A DNA stretch of 38,635 nt from Halorussus amylolyticus (GTDB lineage: Archaea; Halobacteriota; Halobacteria; Halobacteriales; Haladaptataceae). A program made the position numbers and the translations under genes. Shown one piece after another: positions 2,742 to 12,908 of the stretch. A model generated the notes under the pieces. It had not been told where the DNA came from. It ran no database searches and saw nothing but the letters and a program-made list of their open reading frames with translations. Location: assembly GCF_004143485.2 (NCBI RefSeq), contig NZ_RXOB02000049.1:1-38635 (forward strand), in the 5' to 3' direction. Position 1 is the stretch's first letter. The number at the start of each line of letters is the position of its first letter.

Positions 2742-4394
2742 ATGAGTCAGCGAGGACAGCGAATGCAAGGTCAGCCGATGATAGTAATGAGCGACGAGTC
2801 CCAGCGCGTGAAGGACAAGGACGCGCAGGAGCACAACATCACCGCGGCCCGCGCGGTCGCCGACGCGGTGCGCTCGACGCTCGGACCCAAGGGGATGGAC
2901 AAGATGCTCGTCGATTCGATGGGCGACGTGACCATCACGAACGACGGCGTCACCATCCTTCAGGAGATGGACATCGACAACCCGACCGCCGAGATGATTA
3001 TCGAGGTCGCCGAGACCCAAGAGGATGAGGCGGGCGACGGCACCACGACCGCAGTCGCGGTCACGGGCGAACTCCTCAAGAACGCCGAGGACCTCCTCGA
3101 ACAGGACATCCACCCGACCGCCATCATCAAGGGCTTCCACCTCGCCAGCGAGAAGGCCCGCGAGGAAATCGACAACGTCGCCGAGGACGTTGACACCGAC
3201 GACGAGGACCTCCTCCGGAAGGTCGCCGAGACATCGATGACCGGCAAGGGCGCGGAACTCAACAAGGAGCGCCTGAGCGAAATCATCGTGGACGCGGTCA
3301 AGCAGGTCACGGTCGAAGGCACCGTGGACCTCGAGTTCATCAAGACCGAGACCCAGACCGGCCGGTCGTCCGGCGAGTCCGAACTCCTCAAGGGCGCGGT
3401 CATCAGCAAGGATCCGGTCCACGACAACATGCCCACGAACGTCGAGGACGCCGACGTGCTCCTCCTCAACGAAGCGGTCGAAATCGAGGAGACCGACGTG
3501 GACACCAGCGTCAACATCGAGAACCCCGACCAGCTCCAGCAGTTCCTCGACCAGGAGGAGAAACAGCTCAAGGAGAAGGTCGAGCAAATCGTGGACACCG
3601 GCGCTGACGTCGTCTTCTGCCAGAAGGGCATCGACGACATGGCCCAGCACTACCTCGCGAAGGAGGGCATCCTCGCGGTCCGCCGCGTGAAGAAGTCCGA
3701 CGTCGCCTTCCTGAAGGAAGTTCTCGGTGCGAACGTCGTCTCAGACCTCGACAGCGCCTCCGCCGACGACCTCGGTCACGGCGACGTGACCCGCGACGAG
3801 GGCGACGAACTGTTCTACGTCGAGGGCGACGACAGTCACGGCGTCACCCTCCTCCTGCGCGGTTCGACCGACCACGTCGTGGACGAGCTCGAACGCGGCG
3901 TCACCGACGCGCTCGACGTCGTGGCCCAGACCGTCTCGGACGGCCGCGTCGTCGCGGGCGGCGGAGCCATCGAGGTCGAGGTCGCGGGCCGACTCCGCGA
4001 CTACGCCGACTCCGTTTCGGGCCGCGAGCAGCTCGCGGTCGAAGCGTTCGCCGACTCGCTCGAACTCGTTCCCCGCGTCCTCGCGGAGAACGCCGGACTC
4101 GACTCCATCGACACGCTCGTCGACCTGCGCTCGGCCCACGAGTCGGGCGACGAGCGCGCCGGTCTCGACGTGTACAGCGGCGACGTGGAGGACACCTTCG
4201 ACGCGGGCGTCGTCGAACCCGCCCACTCGAAGGAGCAGGCCGTCTCCAGTGCCACCGAGGCCGCGAACCTCGTGCTGAAAATCGACGACATCATCTCGGC
4301 TGGCGACCTCTCGACCGACAAGGGCGACGACGAAGGCGGTGCTGGCGCTGGCGGCATGGGCGGTATGGGCGGCGGCATGGGCGGCATGATGTAA
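2742..4394 (+). CDS. thsA: Thermosome subunit (group II chaperonin)
   Basis: 550 residues, the usual length for an archaeal CCT subunit. These form double-ring cytosolic complexes that fold proteins using ATP. Visible signatures: [13 protein letters not shown] (47-59), TNDGVTIL (66-73), the nucleotide-binding GDGTTT (98-103), an apical-domain helical protrusion in the middle, GGGAIE before the C-terminal equatorial domain, and a flexible Gly-Met-rich tail ending GGMM. Acidic residues dominate, as expected in a halophile. Haloarchaea usually have two or three paralogues (thsA/thsB or cct1-3), and the paralogue cannot be fixed here. It has its own promoter and two hairpins follow the stop. Confidence 0.97.
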
Positions 4395-6052: not shown

Positions 6053-7333
6053 TTAGCGCTGGAGCAGATTCACGAGCGCGGTCGTCGCTTGCGTGGCCCG
6101 TCCCGGTCGTCGCATCGGCGACTCGGCCGGTCGGTCGAACATCGCTCCGAACACGCTCTCGATGTCCCGAACGAACGGTTCGGGGTCGTCGAGGTCGAGG
6201 TAGTCGAACCGGGGATGGCGCACCATAGACGCGGCGACGTGAGCCGCAGTTTTGACGAACGACGGTCGCTCGACCACCGGGTAGTCCTCGCACGCGATGC
6301 TGTGGAGGTGGAGGAGTTCACCCCGGACGAGGTGGCCCGCGACCCCGACCTCGTATTCGGGCGGGTCCTCCGGCGGGTCGCCTTCCGCCATCGACCAGTA
6401 GAGGTTCGGGAAGTCCACGCCCGCCTGCACGGTGAACGGGAGCGACGACCAGAACCGCGGATTCACTTCCATGAGCTCGAACTCGCCGGTCTCGTCGTTC
6501 CGGAGGAACTCGACCATCGCGACCCCGTGCCAGTCGAGTTCGTCGAGGAGCGCCAACCCGGCGGCTTCGAGTTCGGGGATGTCCACCGACTCGCGGTACG
6601 AACTCGGGCCGCCACAGTACTTGTACCCCCGGCGCTGGCGGTGCTGAAACGTGGCGACCGGTTCGCCCTCGTCGTAGAGCGCGAAGAACCCGTACTCGTC
6701 GGTTCCGGGCACGTACTCCTGCACGAGCGGGACGTGACCCATCTCCGAGACGACGGTCTCGCGGTCGGGCGCGCTATCGGATTCGACGTACGTCGTGGAC
6801 GGGCGTCGAAACGCCGCCGCGGCGTCCTCGCCGACGTACTCCGGCGCGGGAATGGTGTATCGTCCCTTGATTATTGTTTCCTCGCTCCAGTCGTCCCAGT
6901 CGTCGAATTTCGCGGTTTCGGGCATCGAGACGCCCGCGGCGTCCGCAGCGTCGAACAGCTCGATTCGGTCCTGTGCGCCCCGGAGCGTCTCGAACGACGG
7001 CCACGGCGTCCCGACGTGGTCCGAGAAGGCGTCGCGATGTTTCGCCAGCGCGTACACGTCAGTTTCCCGGAACGGGACGATAGTCCGGACGTCCTCGCGC
7101 TCGGCGAGGCCGAGGAGCGCCTCGGCGTACCCCGAGAGGTCCTTGCACGGGTCGGGTACCCGGACGGTCTCGTCAGCGTACTTCGACCGGAACCCCGGCG
7201 GGTCCGGGAGTTCCGAGACCGCAATCGTTCGAACCCCGCTTCGGCCGAGCGACCGAAGGCAGGCCGTACTGCTCGCCACGTCGATAGCGGGTACGACGGC
7301 GGTGCGGTCGGGTCGTGATTCGTTCGCCCCCAT
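6053..7333 (-). CDS. ATP-grasp domain protein (carboxylate-amine/thiol ligase type)
   Basis: 426 residues from the ATG at 7333; a GTG three codons upstream gives a longer but less likely start. The N-terminal part (ATAVVPAID to about residue 110) is a pre-ATP-grasp domain. The middle contains ETIIKGRY (lysine for ATP binding), LVQEYVPGTDEYGFF, and the metal-binding phrase FELMEVNPRFWSSLPF, all typical of ATP-grasp ligases that join a carboxylate to an amine through an acyl phosphate. Similar stand-alone proteins in haloarchaea lie near glycan or cofactor genes, but no partner is adjacent here. AT-rich DNA at 7346-7372 supplies the promoter. The substrate is unknown. Confidence 0.8.
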   Translation of the reverse strand: MGANESRPDRTAVVPAIDVASSTACLRSLGRSGVRTIAVSELPDPPGFRSKYADETVRVPDPCKDLSGYAEALLGLAEREDVRTIVPFRETDVYALAKHRDAFSDHVGTPWPSFETLRGAQDRIELFDAADAAGVSMPETAKFDDWDDWSEETIIKGRYTIPAPEYVGEDAAAAFRRPSTTYVESDSAPDRETVVSEMGHVPLVQEYVPGTDEYGFFALYDEGEPVATFQHRQRRGYKYCGGPSSYRESVDIPELEAAGLALLDELDWHGVAMVEFLRNDETGEFELMEVNPRFWSSLPFTVQAGVDFPNLYWSMAEGDPPEDPPEYEVGVAGHLVRGELLHLHSIACEDYPVVERPSFVKTAAHVAASMVRHPRFDYLDLDDPEPFVRDIESVFGAMFDRPAESPMRRPGRATQATTALVNLLQR

Positions 7334-7342
7334 TACCACCAC

Positions 7343-7560
7343 ATCGGTTACATTATTACTTTGTTATGACCGTGCTGTCGCGGTACTCGGTTCGTGGGGA
7401 GGAACGAAGGGAGACGGTATCACTACCCCCTCCGGTCGTAATCGACGCCTAAGCGCGACGAGAAGCCGAAAGCGAGCGGATTTGGAAGGCTACTCCGAGC
7501 GAATCGCACCTACCGGCGAAGATTTCGAATTGCGGCGAAACACTGAGGTGGCCCCCGTGA
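7343..7560. promoter_or_regulatory. Divergent intergenic region
   Basis: Separates the leftward ATP-grasp gene from the rightward gene at 7561. The AT-rich run at 7346-7372 fits the promoter of the ATP-grasp gene. I see no clear TATA box for the rightward gene. Confidence 0.35.
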
Positions 7561-8037
7561 GTGCGCCAGCTCGTGGGCGAGTTCGCCGAGGCAGTGCGCG
7601 ACCGACTCCGGGACGCCCTCGCCGAGCGACGGCCGTCGCTCGACTGGGAGACCGAGCACCGAATCCGCCGGACCCCCGTGGACGTGGTGGGCCGCGACTC
7701 CGACCGATTCGTCGCGGTCGAACTGGAGTGGCGGCGCGCCGACCCGGCGAACAACACCGCGAAACTGTTCTACTACGCCGACGACGGCGACCTCGACGCC
7801 GACGAGGTGGTCGTCTGCCAGCTTTTCTCGGGCTACTACGACCTCGAGGACGTCGGGGTGTCCTCCAAACGCGAGGTCGCGGAGTTCGTGGGCGAAACCG
7901 CCGCCGAGAGCGTCGAGCGCGTCTCGTTTCATCCGCTTCGACTCGCCATCGACCCGCCGAAGCGGGGCGGCGACCGGCCCGCAGGATGGCAAAAGCGAAC
8001 CGACGGGACCGCCGACGAAATCGCGTCACTCCTCTAA
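7561..8037 (+). CDS. Uncharacterised protein, possible PD-(D/E)XK-like fold
   Basis: 158 residues with a GTG start. No family is recognised with confidence. Residues 30-75 read E-x-E-H-R...TPVDVVG...RFVAVELEWRRADPANNTAKLFYY: an aspartate (D41) on one strand followed by an ExE (E54, E56) on the next is the layout of PD-(D/E)XK nucleases, with Glu replacing the usual Lys. The remaining sequence is soluble and acidic. Its 3' end overlaps the convergent membrane gene by 12 bases. Both the coding call and the start are moderately supported by codon pattern and acidic composition; the nuclease idea is a hypothesis. Confidence 0.6.
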   Translation: MRQLVGEFAEAVRDRLRDALAERRPSLDWETEHRIRRTPVDVVGRDSDRFVAVELEWRRADPANNTAKLFYYADDGDLDADEVVVCQLFSGYYDLEDVGVSSKREVAEFVGETAAESVERVSFHPLRLAIDPPKRGGDRPAGWQKRTDGTADEIASLL

Positions 8038-8565
8038 ATCCGGGCGCTCTGCCGACGCGCGGCCGAGAAACGGCCGCGCGTCGAGACCGTAGACGAGACC
8101 GTACGAGAGAGCGAGATTCAGGCCGTAGGCCGCGCCCGGCACGACGAAGAACGGAAGCGCGGCCATCGACGTTCCGAGGAGTTCGAGGAGCGCAAGCGCG
8201 CCGAACGGAAGCAAGAATCCGAGGACGAGCAGGAGGAGCGTGACCTCCACGCGCCGGGCGTGGGGGGGGGGCCCCCCCCCCCCCCCCCCCCCGGGGGGGG
8301 GGGGGGGGCGGCGCCCCCCCCCCCCCCGCCCGGCGCTGGTCGGCGTTCGGAACGCGACCCAGAGATAGCCCCCAACGAACGCCCCGAGCAGGAAGCCGAC
8401 GAACTCCCACCGGGCCGACACCGAGAACGCCCGGCGAGTCGCGCTCAGATACCACCCGACTGCGAGGAAGCCGAGCGCGAACACGTAAAAGCCCGTCACT
8501 ACCCACTGGACCCCACCGACCAGTTTCTCGCGGAGCGAGGCGTCGTGGCTCGCCGAATCGGTCAT
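8026..8565 (-). CDS. Multi-pass membrane protein interrupted by a G/C homopolymer block
   Basis: 179 residues with about four hydrophobic segments (near 19-40, 54-72, 107-130 and 134-158), so an integral membrane protein with no recognised family. Between segments 2 and 3, residues about 81-101 are only Gly, Arg and Pro, encoded by the homopolymer block at 8262-8327. The flanking residues (TPTSAGR before, HARRVEV after) look like an ordinary cytosolic loop, and the frame is kept across the block. The true loop is probably shorter or different. It is convergent with the gene ending at 8037. Confidence 0.6.
   Translation of the reverse strand: MTDSASHDASLREKLVGGVQWVVTGFYVFALGFLAVGWYLSATRRAFSVSARWEFVGFLLGAFVGGYLWVAFRTPTSAGRGGGGRRPPPPPGGGGGGGPPPHARRVEVTLLLLVLGFLLPFGALALLELLGTSMAALPFFVVPGAAYGLNLALSYGLVYGLDARPFLGRASAERPDLEE
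8262..8330. repeat. Alternating poly-G / poly-C homopolymer block
   Basis: G10 (8262-8271), C21 (8272-8292), G16 (8293-8308), five mixed bases, then C14 (8314-8327). Nothing like it occurs elsewhere in the window. Runs of this kind are unlikely to be read or assembled correctly, so this is probably a sequencing or assembly artefact. Confidence 0.9.
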
Positions 8566-10490: not shown

Positions 10491-10779
10491 GTGGAGGTGT
10501 GTTTCGCGGTTGACGGTAAAAGGGCGTCGGGTGTGACAGATTTTCGGAGGGCGACTGCTCCGATTCGTCTCCGAACGCGCTGGACTGCAACGAGCGCACT
10601 CCCCCGGCATGGCCGGAGAGTACAACAAGTACGACCGTCAACTAGTAGGCATCGGTCAATCAGTAGGCGTTGTCGATGGTGCGCACGACACCGGGGACAG
10701 ATTGCCATGCCGGAACTGCGTTCCAGCGTACGGGAAACCCAAGCAGGGTGCGCGTGCTGACACGCGTTTCGAAATTTAG
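10491..10779. other. Intergenic stretch with a 56-residue orphan reading frame
   Basis: About 290 bases of normal GC between pheA and the AT-rich island. A plus-strand frame 10609-10779 would encode 56 residues beginning MAGEYNKYDRQLVGIG and containing CRNC, with no family I recognise. It may be a gene remnant or chance. No tRNA or clear terminator is seen. Confidence 0.35.
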
Positions 10780-10852
10780 CGCATATGTAACAATAAATAT
10801 GGACTTGGGAGAAGTTTAAGTCACGGGAATCGAACCTATTCAGGACGTTTAG

Positions 10853-10927
10853 TGACTTTCTAGGAGATCCATAAATAGTATAGATACAGATAATTATATA
10901 AATGTATAATATAAAATTAGAAAGTCA
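10853..10927 (+). promoter_or_regulatory. Inverted repeat around the AT-rich promoter region of the halocin-like gene
   Basis: TGACTTTCTA at 10853-10862 recurs as its exact reverse complement TAGAAAGTCA at 10918-10927. The arms flank an AT-rich segment with several TATA-like sequences. A TTTATTT at 10927-10933 is about 25 bases before the ATG and could serve a leaderless transcript. The arms may be regulator sites. Confidence 0.45.
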
Positions 10928-10954
10928 TTTATTTGATTAGGTACTATAAAAAGT

Positions 10955-11818
10955 ATGGAAAATAAAAATGGCAAAAGAAATAAAACGGAGAATCGAACGT
11001 CGGCCACTCGACGAGGAGTTCTCGGGGCGTTAGGTACTACCGCTGGCGCAATTGCAAGCACTGGGTTCGTGAGCACAGTCTCAGCAGATTCCGCGAACGT
11101 TAATGACATCCAAGGTACGAAACAAGTAGAAACCCTATTGTCTGAAGTTGGAAATCCGAAAATAACTGGAGGTGACCAGCTGGTCCGAGAAATAGATGGC
11201 GTCAGTATACTTGCAACAAACCTGAAAACTGAAATTGGAACACTGGTCCATCTGAAAGTTCTGAGCTCGGAGCGTGAGAAGTTTGATCGCGGATACTCCT
11301 CGGCGACCTTTAGGATTGGAAATCTGACTCAGGAGATACTGGAGAAACTCCCAACGAAGTTCAGTAGCACTCCAGTGGGTACCTCCCTTTCGTTCCTGCA
11401 AAAGGATAAAGAAACGACGCTTGTGACTACTGTAACGGAGGACGAGAAAGAGCAAATAGCGGAGTTAGTCGATACGGAGGAGTTCGTCGCTCAGTACGTC
11501 AACGGCCACTACGAGATTCATACATCCAAAAGCGCACGGTACAATGTTTATCCTGCGGGAGGAACGGAGAGGAAAGTAAAGGGGTCGTCCGTCGAGACAC
11601 TCGCAACTACACAAATCAACGAAGATGCCTGTTTTGACTGTGTGGCGAATTCGCCTCTCGCAAAATGTGGAACGTGTATACAACACTGTACGCCGGGCGA
11701 TGCTTTCGCTCCACTACAGTGTCCAGCATGTATTGTAGACAACTGTGCTGATTCGGATGTAATAGCCTGTGGCAAGTGCATCGCAAGTGCCGCAGGCGAT
11801 ATCCCGAATCCGTTCTGA
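10955..11818 (+). CDS. Halocin C8-like two-part precursor (predicted antimicrobial peptide with immunity domain)
   Basis: 287 residues. A Tat signal peptide starts the protein: TRRGVLGALG at 18-27, a hydrophobic stretch, then SADSA around 43-47. Residues about 48-220 form a cysteine-free soluble domain. Residues 221-287 hold ten cysteines (226, 229, 238, 241, 245, 256, 259, 264, 272, 275), including four CxxC pairs. Known halocin C8 precursors are about 283 residues, Tat-exported, with an N-terminal immunity part and a C-terminal microhalocin of 76 residues with ten cysteines; this protein has the same plan and size. I match architecture, not aligned residues. The predicted role is killing competing haloarchaea while protecting the producer. 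No processing protease or transporter gene is adjacent. Confidence 0.7.
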   Translation: MENKNGKRNKTENRTSATRRGVLGALGTTAGAIASTGFVSTVSADSANVNDIQGTKQVETLLSEVGNPKITGGDQLVREIDGVSILATNLKTEIGTLVHLKVLSSEREKFDRGYSSATFRIGNLTQEILEKLPTKFSSTPVGTSLSFLQKDKETTLVTTVTEDEKEQIAELVDTEEFVAQYVNGHYEIHTSKSARYNVYPAGGTERKVKGSSVETLATTQINEDACFDCVANSPLAKCGTCIQHCTPGDAFAPLQCPACIVDNCADSDVIACGKCIASAAGDIPNPF

Positions 11819-12116
11819 TTCATCACCTCTCGTCCCAGTCACTCACGAAACTAGGTCGTTCGAACGTAAACCGCTGAGATTTCACAGCTTCAAATCTTAA
11901 CACAGTTACTATATAACCCCATAAAATTATATTTACACGGTAGGAATATATAAAACCGCCATTTATAAATTATATTGAATTTATTATCATGTATATCGGA
12001 GTGATCGGGATTTTCAGAATTATTAGCGGAAAAGCTTAAAGCGGTTGTAGGTGGGGCAGGAAAGAATCGTAAATCAATCAACGTCGTCGAAAGGGTGCGA
12101 CTTATCGAACAACTAC
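11819..12116. other. AT-rich intergenic region, no gene seen
   Basis: About 300 bases between two convergent genes, AT-rich especially at 11890-12000. A minus-strand frame of 63 codons exists but has no protein-like character. I see no repeat or RNA gene. Confidence 0.5.
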
Positions 12117-12836
12117 TTACTCAACGCGTTCTGAGTCTTCTGGTAGGCGAAACCGAAAGTCCTCCATGCCTGTATTAAACTCAACCTCTTCGAGCTTTTC
12201 GGTTTGGAAATACGTCTCGTCCTGGAGGTCCGTGTCTGTGTTAGGTTCTAATAGTCCTCCCTCTCGGATGTCGTGAACCACTTCGCGTTTGAGTGGAAAC
12301 CAATACGTTCCGTCTACCCATAAAGTGACAAAATCTATACCTCTATGAGGGACATCGGCGTCCTCCGTGGGTCGAAACGTCAGGACATGCGTCTCGCGAC
12401 CCGCGACGGCGTCCGTCCCGTCGTAGGTCACGTCGAAGTCCGTTTTGGGGGAAGAACCGATGAGTGTCACCCCACCAATATATCCGCGTCCGTCGTCCGG
12501 TGTTTCGAACTCAATCTCATGGTACCGGTTCGTTTCGCTATCGTACAATGCTATACCACCCTCATTTTTTATCAATACATCAGAATCACCGCCCAGTGTA
12601 TCAGTTGGGATGTTCATAACCTCGAAATTGGGGTCGCGCACAGTCTTCGCGGATACGACTTCCTTGCGAAGCTCAACTGGAGGTCGTTCCCAAATTTCAA
12701 GTCGTGTCTCCATGCGTCCGCCGCCGAACTCTTGGGCTTTGCGTTGGACACCGTGAATCTCTTCGGGGAGGTTATCCGTTGCGAGTAGTTGTTCAATTAT
12801 CTCGTTTGTCGGTAGTGCATCGCCGTCCGCAGACAT
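12117..12836 (-). CDS. LolA-like lipoprotein-carrier-fold protein lacking a signal peptide
   Basis: 239 residues. Phrases typical of haloarchaeal LolA/DUF2092-like proteins are present: HGVQRKAQEF near the start, LEIWERPPVELRKEVV, DVTYDGTDAVAGRETHVLTF and VTLWVDGTYWFPLKREVV, then a final EVEFNTGMEDFRFRLPED. Most relatives are exported lipoproteins with an N-terminal signal and lipobox Cys; here the protein begins MSADGDALPTNEIIEQLL with neither. The start is backed by a TATA box (TATAAATC on the plus strand at 12861-12868) 25-32 bases upstream, so a signal peptide has not been missed through a wrong start. It may act in the cytosol or be a truncated form. Codon use is AT-richer than in flanking genes. 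Confidence 0.7.
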   Translation of the reverse strand: MSADGDALPTNEIIEQLLATDNLPEEIHGVQRKAQEFGGGRMETRLEIWERPPVELRKEVVSAKTVRDPNFEVMNIPTDTLGGDSDVLIKNEGGIALYDSETNRYHEIEFETPDDGRGYIGGVTLIGSSPKTDFDVTYDGTDAVAGRETHVLTFRPTEDADVPHRGIDFVTLWVDGTYWFPLKREVVHDIREGGLLEPNTDTDLQDETYFQTEKLEEVEFNTGMEDFRFRLPEDSERVE

Positions 12837-12908
12837 GAATAGTCATCTCTTCTACGACAGTATAAATCTTGTTTCAGTGAAACGTATCTCTACGAGAAGG
12901 AGTCCAAC

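Follow-up and report, generated by a model that had tools for sequence, protein, structure and literature searches.

Archaeal antimicrobial peptides known at the gene level are few, and halocin C8 is the best described of them. The analyzed stretch of Halorussus amylolyticus DNA (38,635 nucleotides, hereafter the window) encodes a protein with a Tat signal and a cysteine-rich end, which the initial annotation took for a halocin C8-like precursor. The locus raises the question of whether this protein belongs to the halocin C8 family and, if it does not, what it is likely to do.

Architecture of the precursor

The gene begins with ATG, spans 10955-11818 on the plus strand and encodes a 287-aa pre-pro-protein for which full-length relatives exist. 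The initial annotation described this protein correctly but placed its start at 10853; positions 10853-10954 are upstream sequence with in-frame stops. The reading frame is not a chance one, because a full-length relative from the same genus matches it at 39% identity (E 3e-53; weaker matches in other families were found in the same protein search) and two close relatives, at 38-44% identity, retain all ten cysteines, with one cysteine displaced by one residue.

Translation of the open reading frame confirmed the layout proposed earlier, comprising a Tat signal, a cysteine-free middle and a C-terminal part with ten cysteines and four CxxC pairs. The Tat signal (residues 1-44; 10955-11086, plus strand) carries the motif T-R-R-G-V-L-G, with the twin arginines at 19-20, and is probably cleaved after residue 44, between VSA and D. 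R19 and R20 are invariant in 12 relatives, and TIGR01409 matches the window precursor alone weakly, at 11.5 bits, under the 16.7-bit cutoff. The central domain (residues 45-225; 11087-11629, plus strand) contains no cysteine, and its residues G95, T161 and E164 are invariant in the alignment of relatives. The C-terminal part (residues 226-287; 11630-11815, plus strand) is the presumed active peptide. It holds all cysteines of the protein (226, 229, 238, 241, 245, 256, 259, 264, 272 and 275), arranged in four CxxC pairs, with C245 and C264 in addition. Residues 221-287 have a GRAVY of 0.38, a pI of 4.05 and a mass of 6.8 kDa. Single-sequence AlphaFold prediction yielded no usable model (pLDDT 36-38).

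A family of CxxC precursors in haloarchaea

A profile built from 12 sequences (A1) identified 55 loci of this family in 41 of 391 haloarchaeal genomes at E < about 5e-11; the longer tally of 224 genomes obtained with the same profile consists mostly of Tat signals. The window protein, itself one of the 12 seed rows, scores E 5e-76. A profile of the cysteine domain only has matches in 32 genomes at E 1e-3. The relatives share the three-part architecture and the motifs of the central domain, and the window protein possesses the Tat signal, the central GTL and (R)xxTxxE motifs, the C-terminal CxxC array and the six cysteines (C229, C241, C245, C256, C259 and C272) that are invariant across 18 aligned diverse members. 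The number and spacing of the cysteines otherwise differ between members. A Gly/Ala-rich core, TGIGAVACVACL, is found in many sister members and is missing from the window subfamily, as was noted for the window protein at the outset.

No Pfam or NCBIfam model beyond Tat matched any scanned member, and nothing credible was found among PDB sequences. Judged by these searches, the family is unnamed and has no model in either collection, although it may have been described in earlier literature. Tandem copies occur in four genomes (G113, G203, G326 and G370), and plasmid pHl5678-1 of Haloferax larsenii NCIM 5678 carries four family members.

The four CxxC pairs call to mind an exported metal-binding or redox protein, one that would be loaded with metal at its CxxC knuckles before Tat export and would have no antimicrobial role. 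The Tat pathway fits such a protein, as it exports folded proteins that often bear cofactors. However, no metalloprotein family or structure matches above noise in Pfam, NCBIfam or PDB sequences, the number and spacing of the cysteines vary, and a hydrophobic core rich in Gly and Ala is present in several members. Nor are the patchy presence of the family, its tandem paralogs and the decay of the gene in one relative what one would expect of a housekeeping cofactor protein. We consider a metal or redox function unlikely, while giving it some weight.

Relationship to halocin C8

At the sequence level, the window protein has one of the features by which halocin C8 precursors are recognized, the plan of a Tat-exported precursor ending in a ten-cysteine peptide. 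The claim of membership in the halocin C8 family nevertheless failed. In the NCBIfam scan, TIGR04449 (model cutoff 24 bits) gave no match to the window protein even at E<=10, and none of the 12 scanned relatives matched at E<=1. The hhalign probability between the window family and TIGR04449 was 0.4% for the cysteine domains and likewise 0.4% for the middle domains, where the HalI-like middle was tested. In a profile-profile comparison with 22 TIGR04449 precursors, the Tat signal region alone aligned. The model itself works, since it detects members in 43 of the 391 haloarchaeal genomes, including the genome analyzed here, where a genuine TIGR04449 halocin C8-like precursor lies on another contig (G000:C2:201184-201384, L028; 37.5 bits).

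Two signs had been named in advance as speaking against the initial annotation. Absence of halocin homology at the profile level was indeed what the TIGR04449 scan and hhalign returned; the other sign, a known metal-binding enzyme that contains the cysteine domain, did not turn up in Pfam, NCBIfam or PDB sequences. By profile, the window protein falls outside the halocin C8 family, and the suggested new microhalocin subfamily of halocin C8 type gives way to a separate family with no profile homology to it.

It could still be argued that the protein is a true halocin C8 member that has diverged very far. The order of the parts, the ten cysteines and the type of neighboring gene are the same, the length is similar (ProC8 has 283 aa, PMC11509114), and a similar N-terminal leader, a pre-Tat extension of about 40-60 residues with a DxGGC motif, occurs in L039 of the new family and in L012 and L020 of TIGR04449. 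Given the silence of TIGR04449 up to E 10, the noise-level hhalign values for both domains and the different spacing of the cysteines, we regard so distant a membership as quite improbable.

Genes of the two families occur together in 13 genomes, which is above expectation (Fisher p 1e-4, uncorrected for phylogeny and genome size).

The AT-rich insert and the pheA-lpd site

The precursor gene lies in an AT-rich insert between pheA on the left and lpd on the right (10760-12905, no strand), which two relatives lack. The GC content is 0.47-0.49 across the two genes of the insert versus about 0.66 in the surroundings, and GC3 is 0.47 in the precursor gene and 0.53 in the second, LolA-like gene versus 0.84-0.87 in the neighbors (pheA, 0.86; lpd, 0.85), so the early description of an AT-rich island is borne out. 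In genomes G024 and G391, the pheA-lpd gap is just 94 and 75 bp, respectively, and both genes are missing there. Searches for carriage of the precursor by viruses and phages, and a tblastn search of plasmids with the window protein as the query, gave zero matches.

Across the genus, the pheA-lpd gap measures between 75 bp and more than 2 kb (L121, L122, L123, L125, L126, L127, L129), and the cargo of this variable site differs, including a zinc-ribbon ORF, an HTH-type ORF and others. In G400 (L124), the 3' end of lpd is present three times, at 1089-1118 (30 bp), 3960-4201 (242 bp) and 6657-8126 (the whole gene), and a 5' piece of pheA adjoins the 242-bp copy. The 3' end of lpd may be a hot spot of recombination or integration. 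Elsewhere in the window, positions 8262-8330 consist of alternating G and C runs of up to about 25 within a membrane-protein gene (8026-8565, minus strand), possibly an assembly artefact.

A LolA-like partner gene

The second gene of the insert (12117-12836, minus strand) is convergent with the precursor gene and encodes a 239-aa protein of the LolA_like type, which we consider a candidate immunity protein from its pairing with the precursor. Its matches to PF17131 (LolA_like) reach 16.3 and 23.8 bits, below the gathering threshold of 30 bits. The precursor and partner are paired at three Halorussus loci: in the window and in G400, both at the pheA-lpd site, and at another site in G171. The G400 and window genes at the pheA-lpd site share 43% (precursor) and 46% (partner) identity. 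The partner also occurs alone, with no precursor, in Halorussus aquaticus, which counts against the interpretation favored below.

G171 has an intact partner at its pheA-lpd site, next to a precursor cut down to its last 44 codons. Over 142 bp, this remnant shares 94% DNA identity with the G400 gene, and one CxxC cysteine is changed. Between G400 and G171, the copies of the partner gene differ with a dN/dS of 0.41 (p 0.009). An intact partner beside a decayed precursor is the pattern expected of an immunity gene that outlives its toxin, which is suggestive only, because the loci are so few. No signal peptide or membrane anchor is visible in the partner, so that protection against an external peptide would be hard to explain.

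Homology between the partner and the middle domain of the precursor was considered and rejected: BLAST gave E 9e-5 in a tiny database, but hhalign returned noise, and a reversed-sequence control produced an E-value of the same order as most matches. A cysteine-free ORF lying upstream of the H. aquaticus partner gene at first resembled a stand-alone middle domain; it does not match the family, and by eye it resembles ribosomal protein eS1.

A membrane-protein neighbor shared with halocin C8 loci

Members of a further gene family, A3, encode an 'EYTGxNRC' protein with two probable membrane helices and a cysteine-rich C-terminal region (L081, L082, L083, L017, L133, L134), and a subset of these genes adjoins cysteine-rich precursors of two families. 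An A3 gene lies within 3 kb of at least 9 of the 55 family loci (expected, 0.09), a figure inflated because the window family's own loci supplied three of the four A3 seed sequences, and within 3 kb of at least 4 of 55 TIGR04449 loci (expected, 0.08); both counts are lower bounds, drawn from the best A3 matches listed. Without the seed genomes, at least four family loci and at least three TIGR04449 loci remain, and one of the four family loci, in G210, carries a near copy of the gene in seed genome G113. At one TIGR04449 locus, the A3 gene is directly 3' of the precursor on the same strand. A3 genes are common in themselves, occurring in 350 of 381 haloarchaeal genomes, and the A3 partner is missing at the window locus.

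Proposed function

An antimicrobial precursor is probable, because the family is built and positioned like halocin C8, and antagonism is the likeliest role given the tandem and plasmid copies, the A3 adjacency and the co-occurrence with TIGR04449. The earlier idea of a transferred antagonism gene also holds up. A halocin-like mode of action has indirect support in the patchy presence, the tandem copies, a partner in common with TIGR04449 loci and the precursor lost beside a kept neighbor. A secreted signalling or self-recognition peptide would look alike, as its precursor would also be secreted, end in a short cysteine-rich part that varies between members and have partners specific to each lineage, but the association with TIGR04449 loci and the loss of the precursor with its neighbor kept point to a killer and leave that alternative little likelihood.

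We favor, with a probability of roughly 0.55, a Tat-exported precursor that would release a halocin-like, disulfide-rich antimicrobial peptide, with the LolA-like protein as its likeliest immunity or partner protein. The folded precursor would be exported by the Tat pathway and then cut outside the cell by a protease near residue 220, which would separate the central domain from the last 60 or so residues. For HalC8, a protease not yet identified has been reported to free a C-terminal fragment (PMC12893001). The product would be a hydrophobic and acidic peptide with disulfide links and a mass of about 6-7 kDa. It would target competitor membranes and, like halocin C8, inhibit related haloarchaea, while belonging to a family that is either unrelated to halocin C8 or diverged past recognition. 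The central domain probably holds the peptide inactive in the producer, which could be protected by this domain, by the LolA-like protein or by both; the halocin C8 precursor has been reported to yield an immunity part, HalI (PMC11509114). In the Halorussus subfamily, the best candidate for a dedicated immunity or partner protein would be the LolA-like protein.

More broadly, the family could represent a second large haloarchaeal class of antimicrobial precursors without a family model, present in about a tenth of the genomes sampled. Its members would evolve in tandem and move from one locus or plasmid to another, and in Halorussus the precursor would form a unit of two genes, the second encoding a cytoplasmic LolA-like protein dedicated to immunity. 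We offer this view tentatively and consider it possible rather than probable. The family, with no fewer than 55 loci spread over 41 of the 391 genomes and with a reported halocin producer among the strains that carry it, supplies a concrete list of genes for testing, and the LolA-like gene is a candidate stand-alone immunity gene to be tested against it.

Comparison with known systems

Several known proteins resemble parts of this system. Halocin H4, which is activated by the halolysin HlyR4, is by description also a secreted precursor whose C-terminal fragment becomes active after protease cleavage (PMC12893001); it is larger, about 30-35 kDa (PMC11509114), and is set beside the window protein by description only. 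Halocin HA3, reported at about 13 kDa, has as its listed producer Haloferax larsenii NCIM 5678 (PMC11509114), whose plasmid pHl5678-1 carries the four family members mentioned above; the common strain is the sole link. Among the LolA-like proteins (PF17131, PF09865), the G400 copy of the partner matches PF17131 at E 4e-5, below the gathering score. In contrast to these proteins, the partner has no visible signal peptide or lipobox, and its similarity is much lower than that of a family member.

The closest counterpart in design is halocin C8 (ProC8/TIGR04449), which shares with the window family the Tat signal, the cysteine-free middle, the C-terminal ten-cysteine peptide, a similar length and, at some loci, the same type of membrane-protein gene nearby. 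The two differ in that neither the middle nor the cysteine domain shows profile similarity, and in the spacing of the cysteines, the six invariant ones of the window family lying in CxxC-x3-C blocks versus CxxC-x7-CxxxC-x7-C in TIGR04449. Unlike halocin C8, the window subfamily is devoid of a Gly/Ala-rich hydrophobic core and has an extra convergent LolA-like gene. Halocin C8 uses one gene for both purposes, peptide and immunity; the two-gene unit of Halorussus, if true, would differ in dividing them.
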